Shown in pieces: positions 6,750-41,633 of a stretch of DNA of 64,000 nt (position 1 is the first letter of the stretch; the number at the start of each line of letters is the position of its first letter). Source of the DNA: Candidatus Gastranaerophilales bacterium (GTDB lineage Bacteria > Cyanobacteriota > Vampirovibrionia > Gastranaerophilales > Gastranaerophilaceae); NCBI GenBank assembly GCA_944326555.1, contig CALVEK010000013.1, positions 1-64,000 on the forward strand. Direction: 5' to 3'. The position numbers and the translations under genes were made by a program. Below the pieces are notes generated by a model that did not search any database, had not been told where the DNA came from, and saw only the letters and a program-made list of their open reading frames with translations.

Positions 6750-7493
6750 ATGGATACTTCAAGAAACGAGTTAATCTGGGGCAAAGAGAAACAAGACCTG
6801 TTAAAAACCAAACATGTTGCCGTATTCGGTCTTGGCGGTGTTGGCGGTTTTGCTTTGGAGTCTTTGGCAAGAAGCGGGGTCGGTTCTTTTACGATAGTAG
6901 ATTTTGATACCGTTTCAGAGTCTAATATAAACAGGCAGCTTGTTGCTCTAAATTCTACTGTCGGAAAGAAAAAAACCGAAATTTTTAAAGAAAGACTTTT
7001 TGATATTAACCCTGATATAAAACTCAGATTAATTGATGACTTTTACAACGATAATCTTCAAGAACTTTGTTTTGATAACAAACCGGACTATGTCATAGAT
7101 GCAATTGATACAATGCGCTCAAAGATAGATTTGCTCGTTTATTGTTATCAAAACAAAATTTCTGTCATCACCTCTATGGGGGCAGGTAACAGGTTTGATC
7201 CGACACAACTTTATATAACCGATATAAGTCAAATTGAAAATAAAAAATGTACTTTTACAAAAAATGTTTTGTACCAATTAAAAAAACGAGGGATTGAATC
7301 AGGAATAACCGCTGTATGCAGTAGAGAAACACCCAAAGTGCTGGATAAAATCTCGGTGCTTGAAACTATCACAACAAAAAGCGGTGATAATATTGAGTTC
7401 ACTAAAATCACCCCGGGATCTACCCCATTTGTCCCTGCTGTTGCAGGGTATTATCTTGGGTGGTATGTACTTAAGCACTTTTTAAGTGCATAA
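6750..7493 (+). CDS. tcdA: tRNA threonylcarbamoyladenosine dehydratase
   Basis: A 247-residue E1-like/ThiF-fold enzyme. The ATP-binding GLGGVGG loop is at residues about 28-34, SNINRQL (about 57-63) is the family-specific arginine finger segment, and DAIDT marks the second nucleotide-binding region. TcdA cyclises t6A37 in ANN-decoding tRNAs to ct6A. A UBA/ThiF or MoeB role is less likely because the CxxC zinc motifs and neighbouring thi or moa genes are absent and the length matches TcdA. Confidence 0.88.
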   Translation: MDTSRNELIWGKEKQDLLKTKHVAVFGLGGVGGFALESLARSGVGSFTIVDFDTVSESNINRQLVALNSTVGKKKTEIFKERLFDINPDIKLRLIDDFYNDNLQELCFDNKPDYVIDAIDTMRSKIDLLVYCYQNKISVITSMGAGNRFDPTQLYITDISQIENKKCTFTKNVLYQLKKRGIESGITAVCSRETPKVLDKISVLETITTKSGDNIEFTKITPGSTPFVPAVAGYYLGWYVLKHFLSA

Positions 7494-7510
7494 TAACTTT
7501 ATCTTAAAAT

Positions 7511-7927
7511 TTATGTAATAATTTGCACGTATATGTGTCTTGAACGAGGTTTGTTATCAAAATCTATAAGAACAATTTGTTGCCAAGTTCCAAGCAAAAG
7601 CGCTCCGTCTATTAGCGGAACAGATACCGAACTGCCAAAAATAGCTGCTCTTACGTGGGCATATCCGTTGCCATCGTGCCAAGTATCATCGTGATGATAC
7701 TGTTTATCCATAGGGACAACGTCATCCAGTACATCGGGCAAGTCTTTTAAAAGTCCGGGTTCGTATTCGATTGTGGTGATAGAGGCAGTGCTCCCTGCCA
7801 AAGCTACAACGACATTGCCGTTTTTTATGTTGTGATTGTATACGGCAGATTTCACCTTTTGAGTTATATCTATTATGTCGGTAAAACCTCTTGTATTGAT
7901 AGTAAAATTCTCTGTATATACAGCCAT
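7511..7927 (-). CDS. yjbQ: YjbQ/UPF0047 family protein
   Basis: A 138-residue member of the YjbQ (UPF0047) family. The conserved core is clear: GSTASITTIEYEPGL, the H-H-DDTWHDGNGYAH block with its cluster of histidines, and the terminal LLGTWQQIVLIDFD. Some members show weak thiamine-phosphate synthase activity; the true substrate is unsettled. It starts 2 bases after the stop of the upstream secreted-protein gene on the same strand, so the two share an mRNA. Confidence 0.9.
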   Translation of the reverse strand: MAVYTENFTINTRGFTDIIDITQKVKSAVYNHNIKNGNVVVALAGSTASITTIEYEPGLLKDLPDVLDDVVPMDKQYHHDDTWHDGNGYAHVRAAIFGSSVSVPLIDGALLLGTWQQIVLIDFDNKPRSRHIYVQIIT

Positions 7928-7929
7928 TT

Positions 7930-9000
7930 TTATTTTTGAACCTCTTTTGTATATTCATACAAATCTAAGTTTTCTACTCTTGTTGCAAAATATGGCATTG
8001 ATTTGCCTGTTTCTTTCATAAACAGGTAGAATGTTTTATTAAAATAGAAATTTCTGCCTTTAGCCTTTGTTTCCATAGGCATTGACATTGTCATAATGTT
8101 CATAACAGCTTCGCTTTTAAGTTTTATGCCTGTGTTGGTCATGTTAAAGTCTGCTGTTTGCATTGCTTGTGCTATGTATAGTCTTTCTTTTAGCTTTTTG
8201 CTTTTAATTTCTTTGTTGCACAATTCATCGTAGTTAGTCATGTCTTTAAAGGACATAAAAGGTACTTTTAATTGGTCGCCTGCAGTGAAAGTTTTGTTTC
8301 CTTTATAATTTTTTGCTTTTTTGTTTATAGTTTTAAACACTTTGTCGAAGGACTCATCAGAGTTTGTTCTGTATAAAATAACTTCGTCTTTATCTGATTT
8401 TATAGCTACCGCATAATCTTTAGATGAGTTGTAGAACAGTACGTTTACTGAATTGTACAATGATGCGTTGCTTTTTTTATTTATACCAAAATAGTTAAAT
8501 TTTTTGTTTGAGTTGTTAAATTTTTCTTTATCTAAAATGTCAAACCTTGTTGTGTAAGAAAAATCTTTTTTGAGTATTGCATACAACAGATAAGCATTGT
8601 TTGGGTCGTTCCAGTTGATTTTATCTAAAAGTTCGCTTTTTTCGTTAAATTTTTCATATATAGCTTTTTCAATTTGTTCTTTTAATTCAAGAGATGTCCT
8701 GCCGTATGCTGTGTAGTATGAATCCTCTGATAGCATAGATTTTGTAAATTCTTGTTTGTTCAGCTGTTCTGCTATTTTTGATTTTTCATTTTTGAATATC
8801 ACAGGGCCTTTTAATATGTTGTCCATAAAGTCATTCCATACAAGTTGGAAAGTTCCAACCCAAAGTCTGTCAGAATTTTGAGTTTGAGCCGAAAAAACAG
8901 GCAGCATTTGTACTTTGGTTTCATTTTTTGTGTTAGCAAAAGCTAAAGTGCCTATTAGCATTGTTGCTGCTATAACGGCTATTGTAAGTATTTTCTTCAT
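7930..9000 (-). CDS. Unknown secreted protein
   Basis: A 356-residue protein with an N-terminal signal peptide (MKKILTIAVIAATMLIGTLAFA, cleavage expected after AFA). The ATG at 9000 is chosen over 9054 because GGAGA lies 7 bases upstream of it and the signal peptide begins there. The mature part is lysine-rich, without cysteines or recognisable domains; segments such as TNTGIKLKSEAVMNIMTM look like a beta-rich C-terminal domain. It would be exported to the periplasm or beyond. It precedes yjbQ with a 2-base gap. Confidence 0.7.
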   Translation of the reverse strand: MKKILTIAVIAATMLIGTLAFANTKNETKVQMLPVFSAQTQNSDRLWVGTFQLVWNDFMDNILKGPVIFKNEKSKIAEQLNKQEFTKSMLSEDSYYTAYGRTSLELKEQIEKAIYEKFNEKSELLDKINWNDPNNAYLLYAILKKDFSYTTRFDILDKEKFNNSNKKFNYFGINKKSNASLYNSVNVLFYNSSKDYAVAIKSDKDEVILYRTNSDESFDKVFKTINKKAKNYKGNKTFTAGDQLKVPFMSFKDMTNYDELCNKEIKSKKLKERLYIAQAMQTADFNMTNTGIKLKSEAVMNIMTMSMPMETKAKGRNFYFNKTFYLFMKETGKSMPYFATRVENLDLYEYTKEVQK

Positions 9001-9153
9001 TTTTTTCTCCAAATAATAATCTAATTCATTTTTTATATTGAGTTTGTTTTTCATTATGCAGTCAACAAGTATTTTTTATAAGACCCGTTTAGCAGATTAT
9101 CGGATGAAAAACACTCCCTGATTGTTAATAATTTGTCTTGTTTTTGTATAAAC

Positions 9154-9179
9154 AAAAAAGACAGGTTACAACCTGTCTT
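9154..9179 (-). terminator. Terminator of the 81-residue gene
   Basis: On the minus strand AAGACAGGTT (rightmost) and AACCTGTCTT form a 10-bp stem with a 2-base-plus loop followed by a T run (A run at 9154-9159 on the plus strand). Confidence 0.8.
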
Positions 9180-9197
9180 AATTTTAACCTATAAAAT

Positions 9198-9443
9198 TTA
9201 AACTTCAAGGAAGAGACGTCTTCCTACAATGTTGGGCTTTCCGTTGTAATAGCCCGCAAAATAACCGCCCCTTACCGGATTGTTTTTTCCGTAAAAGTTG
9301 GAACTGATGTTTGAACCTTGCATAAAAGGATTTGATGATTGAGTAGCAAAAGGATTTACTGATGCAGGTCTTACTGCTGTTACCGCAGTGGATTTTGCAG
9401 GTGTAAATGCCTTAGAGATAAAACCAACAATATTTTCAATCAT
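9198..9443 (-). CDS. Unknown 81-residue protein
   Basis: A short protein with an amphipathic N-terminus (MIENIVGFISKAFTP), a low-complexity middle rich in S, N, P and F (NPFATQSSNPFMQGSN) and a glycine/tyrosine-rich end (GGYFAGYYNGKPNIVGRR). The ATG is preceded by AAAGG, and a strong terminator follows the stop, so it is probably a real single-gene transcript. No family recognised. Confidence 0.55.
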   Translation of the reverse strand: MIENIVGFISKAFTPAKSTAVTAVRPASVNPFATQSSNPFMQGSNISSNFYGKNNPVRGGYFAGYYNGKPNIVGRRLFLEV

Positions 9444-40145: not shown

Positions 40146-41534
40146 TTATTCATCATTTTTTTTGAGTTCTTCAAGTTCTTTTAGTATACCTTGATTGATT
40201 TCAAGAACGTCAACGCCAAGGTTTGAAAGTACTTGCATCGCAACAGAATCCGGTGTTTGAGTGATTGCCCAAAGCAGGTTTTCTGAAGCGATTTTTGTGT
40301 TTTTGTGCTTTTGTGCTTTTTCCCAAGCAATTTCGAGAATTTTTTTTGCTCTGTCCGAGAAAACAACTTCTCCAAAAGTGTATGAATTTCCGTAACCGAG
40401 AACTCTTTCTACTTCTATTCTTGCATCCTTTATATTTATTCCAAGACGAGACAGAACTTTTGCTCCTACTCCAGCTCCCTCTCCTATTATGCCCAAAAGA
40501 ATAAATTCACTGCCTACTATGTTTCTGTTCATACTTTGAGCTTCTCTTTTTGCAAGACGCAAAATTGTGAGTGTCTCAGGCATTTGTTTTTCTATCGGTT
40601 TTATAATTTTATGAGCAAGCTCATCGTCTACAACATTAAGCTCTTTGAATATATTATACGCAATTCCGCTTTTGGCTTTTAGCATTCCAAGTATTATGTG
40701 TTCCGGTTTTACGCTTGCCGAACCAAGCTCTTTTGCTGTTTCAAACGCGAGCAGCATTGTCCTGAATGCGTTTGGGGTAAATATTATTTGTTTTTCTTCA
40801 AATTCTGCTTGTCTTGATGAGACTTCCTGCAATTTTTCGCAGTACTTATCTATATTTATTCCTGATTCATTCAACATCTTTGTCAAATCAGAATCAGAGT
40901 TTTCCAATATTGATTGTACTATTTGTTCTGTGCCAAGAATTTCATAATGCGATGCTGTCAATTTTGCTACTGCTCTGTCCAGAATATCTTTAGCTTCTCC
41001 CTCTTTGAAAATGGACTGCACCGTTGAGTATTCGCTTTTATCTCTTTTCCTTATTATTTCAGGGTGAAAATCATTTTTCTTGTTATTTTTTTCTATTAAT
41101 TTGAATAATGTCTGTTTGATTTTTTCTGTAGCAACTCCGCATTTTTTGAAATCATCTCTTACTGTTTTATCTTCTGCTGTTTCTCCCGTTGTAATTAGTG
41201 CAAGCAGTATATGTTCAGGCATTATGTATGAGTTTTTGTTTTGTTTTGCCAGTTCAGAAGCCAGTTTTATTATCTTTTGTGATTGATTACTGAATGCTAT
41301 ATTTGTGTGTTTAAAATCGTGCTGTATGTTTTTGTATTTTTGGTATACATAATCTCTAAATTCTTTTGGATCCATACCAGCATAGACAAGCAATCTTGAA
41401 CAGATATTTGATTTTGTTTCGAGAAGCCCCAAAAGAATGTGTTCCGGATAAATTTTGTATGTTAAAGAATCAGCAGCTTCTTTTTGTGCCATTGATATTA
41501 TGTTTATTGCTTTTTCTGTAAAACGTTCAAACAC
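40146..41534 (-). CDS. Six-repeat Clp_N domain protein lacking an AAA+ motor
   Basis: A 462-residue protein built only of Clp N-repeats. Six repeats can be seen at about 4-60, 80-142, 178-236, 251-310, 322-378 and 391-452. Each has the helix-GTEHILLGL-type core (for example [11 protein letters not shown] at 29-39 and [21 protein letters not shown] at 341-361). The last two resemble the N-domain of ClpC most strongly ([20 protein letters not shown]). No Walker A/B, UVR or AAA+ segments follow; the gene ends normally after repeat 6. Start is GTG with AAAGGA upstream. It could serve as an adaptor or decoy for ClpC, as plant ClpT proteins do with single N-domains, or bind substrates alone. No clpC or clpP is adjacent. 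Confidence 0.85.
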
Positions 41535-41633
41535 TCGATTATCCTTTCAGTTGTTCTTTGGCTCTTAATATGGATATTTTACTTAATTATATATTAATTA
41601 TTATAATTTTGGTTATTGTGTTAATTGTTTTTG

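Follow-up and report, generated by a model that had tools for sequence, protein, structure and literature searches.

Three double Clp_N modules without an ATPase

The window analysed here is a stretch of 64,000 nucleotides (contig CALVEK010000013.1, positions 1 to 64,000 of the forward strand, assembly GCA_944326555.1) from a Candidatus Gastranaerophilales bacterium, a member of the gut Melainabacteria within the Cyanobacteriota, the genome of which comprises 2.08 Mb in 45 contigs and is 99.6% complete. Its minus strand encodes, at 40146..41534, a 462-residue protein composed of six Clp_N repeats in three double modules, without an ATPase domain, as judged by profile searches and a predicted structure. 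In a Pfam search the protein matches Clp_N (PF02861) in six stretches (E 1.3e-49, 166.6 bits), and in a genome scan five of the six repeats individually exceed the curated cut-off of 20.7 bits; the AAA families give no match, even at E <= 1. Among NCBIfam models, it is matched solely by the N-terminal ends of those for ClpB, ClpA, TssH, ClpK and ClpG. The AlphaFold model (mean predicted local distance difference test score, pLDDT, of 82) contains three helical modules of two repeats each, the placing of the modules relative to one another being uncertain (predicted template modelling score, pTM, of 0.59). The six repeats, their pairing into three modules and the lack of an AAA part had all been claimed in a preliminary description of this DNA, and are borne out by Pfam, NCBIfam and the AlphaFold model.

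Module 1 (residues 1-150, repeats 1-2; 41085..41534, minus strand, as for all features below) is the fastest evolving, and its N-terminal start resembles that of ClpC itself. It is joined to module 2 by a short linker (~residues 151-175; 41010..41084) in which conservation picks out an invariant His-Pro-Glu at residues 157-159. Module 2 (residues 176-313, repeats 3-4; 40596..41009) is delimited by Pfam and by the fold of the module alone, and module 3 (residues 314-458, repeats 5-6; 40161..40595) is the slowest evolving and the nearest to the ClpC N-domain. P313-I314 is nearly invariant, and the family-specific invariant residues in general sit at or near the module joints.

Each double module has the fold of the ClpC N-domain (5gui, 2y1q, 5hbn); the difference is that here three of them share one chain, with none of the AAA+ ATPase domains of the Hsp100 unfoldases ClpC and ClpB. 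Module 3 matches solved ClpC N-domains with Z ~24 and a root-mean-square deviation of 1.2-1.6 Å over 133-150 residues, and is 40% identical to the N-domain of the genome's own ClpC. Module 2, folded alone, matches ClpC N-domains with Z ~19 (2-3 Å over 130-142 residues), and module 1 matches the N-domains of ClpD, Hsp104 and ClpC2 with Z 17-18. The earlier impression of a ClpC-like third module after two diverged ones was therefore accurate. ClpT1 and ClpT2 of plants and algae (4y0b, 4y0c), which likewise have an ATPase-free double Clp_N fold, match the whole model with Z 19.5 and 20.4 and module 2 with Z 16.8 and 17.9, respectively.

F2 and F80 dominate cyclomarin binding by mycobacterial ClpC1 and ClpC2, with E89 as the third residue (PMC10030653). 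The equivalent of F80 is kept in most modules, being Phe in 29/29 sequences of module 1, 25/29 of module 2 and 21/29 of module 3; that of F2 is Phe in 22/29, 20/29 and 0/29, respectively, and for E89, modules 1 and 2 have lost the equivalent and most of module 3 retains it. Judged by these residues, the ligand groove is partly kept and no module is a perfect copy, the full set of three being the consensus in none. This bears on one possible function. Mycobacterial ClpC2 sequesters cyclomarin as a protective decoy (PMC10030653) and, like the protein described here, is a free, ATPase-less Clp_N protein beside a complete ClpC system. With this precedent, the triple protein might absorb toxic peptides directed against the ClpC N-domain, such as antibiotics of gut competitors or phage proteins; the presence of the target domain in triplicate would suit such a role, as would the fast evolution of module 1. 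However, modules 1 and 2 lack E89 and module 3 lacks F2, the compact housekeeping-cluster position and near-universal presence described below fit a constitutive rather than an induced role, and no CIRCE heat-shock operator is found within the window; we consider a decoy improbable. The architectures also differ: ClpC2 combines an N-terminal dimerisation domain with one C-terminal Clp_N double module (PMC10030653), whereas here residues 1-150 are already Clp_N and no dimerisation domain of that kind is present.

The gene starts with GTG at 41534, preceded at ~7 bases by an AAAGGA-like ribosome-binding site read from the sequence (41542..41547). A weak candidate for a sigma-70-like promoter, a consensus match only, lies at 41597..41624 inside the 99-base intergenic gap. 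Models of anti-phage systems do not match the protein.

Conservation and the Clp system of the order

Full-length orthologs (~450-500 residues), counted by sequence matches without curation, are present in each of the 22 further genomes of the genus, in 53/57 relatives in a first draw of the order and in 129/131 genomes of a second draw, nearly all from the same family (one ortholog is split across two contig ends); ~165 genomes have the gene at full length. The orthologs are ATPase-free; the 53 of the first draw include G051, a 66% complete genome with an in-frame stop inside the match. The four first-draw genomes that lack a full-length ortholog are G024, which retains only a 143-residue module-1 protein, G041, G048 and G054. 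No AAA+ fusion was seen in relatives, the ortholog frames spanning ~447-512 residues. Outside the order the same searches returned no full-length triple protein, only ClpC N-domains or other Clp_N proteins; the contig search relied on two patterns of conserved peptides, with 80 loci retained, and distant triple-module proteins of other phyla may escape it. Plasmid and phage collections yielded no convincing full-length relative: the places that covered the protein each hold a single Clp_N region, to which different stretches of the query align. The triple form, which the preliminary description called unusual, is thus unusual outside Gastranaerophilales and near-universal within them.

The same description had taken free Clp_N proteins to be single-module, which does not hold in general. 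Genome G058, from another order of the class, encodes two AAA-less multi-Clp_N proteins near each other (L067:4154-5458 and 6802-9291, both on the minus strand), of 434 and 829 residues, which carry four and five Clp_N stretches, respectively. Of the 434-residue protein, the second half groups weakly with module 2 of the triple protein (88/88).

The triple protein is under strong purifying selection. Within the genus the ratio of nonsynonymous to synonymous substitution rates (dN/dS, by the Nei-Gojobori method, synonymous sites being close to saturated) is 0.046 for the whole protein; by module it falls from 0.064 (module 1) through 0.036 (module 2) to 0.027 (module 3). In a tree of the modules together with ClpC N-domains, module 1, module 2, module 3 and ClpC each form one strongly supported group, so the triple form predates the diversification of the order. 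That the gene is a fragment or pseudogene of clpC or clpB, or an artefact of their assembly, is favoured only by the missing ATPase part; the ~165 genomes with a full-length gene, the purifying selection and the intact clpC and clpB elsewhere in the same genome rule this out for practical purposes, and with it a truncated or frameshifted clpC.

The genome does encode ClpC and ClpP elsewhere: ClpC (820 residues, with a C-terminal LGF tripeptide of the type that docks into ClpP loops), ClpX, ClpB and two ClpP proteins are all intact. No ClpS scores above the cut-off in this genome, and ClpS is found in 0/40 genomes of the order; it is present in controls and in photosynthetic relatives. ClpS might fill the same functional slot as the triple protein, that of an accessory factor at ClpC, but has an unrelated fold (PF02617) and binds Clp_N; the protein here is Clp_N itself and has no ClpS match. 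Replacement of ClpS as the sole explanation is weakened because neither ClpS nor the triple protein is present in another family of the class (f9). No McsB-type arginine kinase was found in the window's genome, in a search whose control matched only in Lactococcus, below the cut-off. We rejected a role as phosphoarginine reader: the Glu of the 'xEH' motif is mostly kept, but the motif is general to the fold and the kinase was not found.

A gene cluster shared with a ClpX zinc-binding domain

In many relatives, the gene stands in a same-strand array of zf-ClpX (a stand-alone ClpX zinc-binding domain), a ~540-residue protein, ruvX, DUF1292, the Clp_N protein, tilS, hpt and often a histidine kinase. 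Among 70 loci, zf-ClpX is a cluster partner in 35 and tilS in 38. The median gap on either side of the Clp_N gene is ~2 bases or less, with mostly -1 to +17 bases to DUF1292 and -14 to +11 to tilS, and from these few-base gaps we infer that the cluster genes are likely co-transcribed. In about half of the loci, then, the operon encodes motor-less docking domains of both ClpP unfoldases. One such cluster stands in a record titled Fusobacterium sp. CAG:439 (L090); it is typical of Gastranaerophilales, and the name is probably wrong.

In the window's own genome, zf-ClpX, the ~540-residue protein, ruvX and DUF1292 are still together on another contig (C11), where the Clp_N gene and tilS are missing, which indicates that the array has come apart in this genus. 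The neighbours in the window, asnS, a glycosyltransferase gene and miaA, keep their linkage only within the genus, and we dropped them as a functional clue. The zf-ClpX protein on C11 (L187:6938-7219, minus strand) is a ClpX C4 zinc finger of 93 residues without an ATPase, and a full ClpX is encoded in the same genome as well. Such stand-alone zinc fingers (~90 residues) occur in 14/14 sampled genomes of the order and in G058; none was found in the other genomes of the class and phylum that were sampled. The ~540-residue protein between zf-ClpX and ruvX is conserved (L187:5286-6917, minus strand; L083:3654-5282, plus strand) and matches nothing in Pfam or NCBIfam with a meaningful score.

In 7/70 loci a clpP gene follows on the same strand, 3-5 kb downstream. 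Together with the structural matches to ClpT1 and ClpT2 as free double Clp_N proteins, and with the interaction of ClpT1 with Hsp100 chaperones and its stimulation of the ClpD ATPase (PMC4243950), this would fit an accessory subunit on the ClpP ring (or on ClpC) that would act on how the protease assembles or is gated and not on its substrate supply. We regard such a role as rather unlikely: ClpC N-domains are a better structural match than ClpT, and the clpP linkage is rare and, in the fully read locus L083, broken by an opposite-strand gene. ClpT is, moreover, a single-module plastid protein of the ClpP ring, whereas the protein here has three modules and is bacterial.

Possible roles at ClpC

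Adaptors and substrates engage ClpC at its N-domain, and the free N-domain proteins ClpC2 and ClpT serve as a competitor or an accessory factor (PMC10030653, PMC4243950, PMC7966870); for ClpC2, competition for ClpC1 substrates and adaptors has been proposed together with a holdase role (PMC10030653). Since the N-domain is the docking place, three motor-less modules on one chain would bind ClpC adaptors or unfolded substrates at several sites. The reading that we favour, at about even odds, is therefore a multivalent platform for ClpC adaptors or substrates, through which ClpCP would be modulated, whether by competition or by delivery; both the binding and the direction of the effect are our inference. 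In the first case adaptors or substrates would be kept back from ClpC, as by a holdase; in the second, several clients would be collected and then passed on to it. We tentatively lean slightly toward competition, with delivery somewhat more doubtful. The preliminary description had already raised competition with ClpC for adaptors as a conceivable role, along with the bridging of several substrates or of ClpC hexamer subunits. Made together with the stand-alone ClpX domain in one operon, the protein may also take part in controlling the supply to both ClpP unfoldases. In either case it is probably a dedicated regulator of protein breakdown, so far unstudied.

Several points weigh against this. 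Partner binding is a prediction, and the conserved Glu and His of each repeat are also general to the Clp_N fold. The cluster genes other than zf-ClpX are housekeeping genes, possibly neighbours by historical accident, and in the window's genus the Clp_N gene lies apart from them. Finally, no known ClpC adaptor for which the protein could compete has been identified, ClpS and McsB being absent and no search having been made for MecA.

The modules could instead be mere peptide-binding domains of a holdase or signalling scaffold that works independently of ClpC. The phylum also uses Clp_N outside Clp machines, in fusions with a Ser/Thr kinase and with a CAP12/Pycsar TIR domain, and modules 1 and 2 form clades of their own, distant from ClpC. 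The strong resemblance of module 3 to ClpC, together with a ClpX docking domain in the gene cluster, nevertheless points to the Clp system, and we think a ClpC-independent binder unlikely.

Should the platform reading be true, it would add to ClpC2 and ClpT a further case of free N-domains turned regulators. Substrate choice by ClpC in this lineage is unexplained, with the order lacking ClpS and the window's genome McsB, and a conserved motor-less protein with several docking domains, clustered with a docking domain of ClpX that also lacks its motor, offers a concrete candidate for the regulation that is missing. A broader possibility, which we hold to be speculative, is that in Gastranaerophilales the classical ClpC adaptors have been replaced by an operon of motor-less docking domains that sets the substrates of ClpCP and ClpXP. 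Free Clp_N proteins as such are already known from plant ClpT and mycobacterial ClpC2; what is new, to our knowledge, is that a triple form is conserved across the order and that it is paired with a ClpX zinc-binding domain standing alone. None of the papers searched names both Melainabacteria and Clp protease.

Clp_N modules turned up in several other settings. In another order of the class, a Clp_N module is fused to a Ser/Thr protein kinase (L066:2400-3848, minus strand). Next to type I restriction genes and an integrase lies a fusion of a double Clp_N module with a CAP12/Pycsar-type TIR domain (L071:76-1014, plus strand); it has the look of a defence protein in which Clp_N serves as sensor. 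A 250-residue protein (L070:4337-5089, plus strand) has a Clp_N module followed by hydrophobic, membrane-like helices. Lastly, gp251 of Mycobacterium phage Myrna (NC_011273.1:152886-153506) matches the Clp_N modules with an E-value of 4e-18, and the equivalent place in a related phage is annotated as a Clp family protein.
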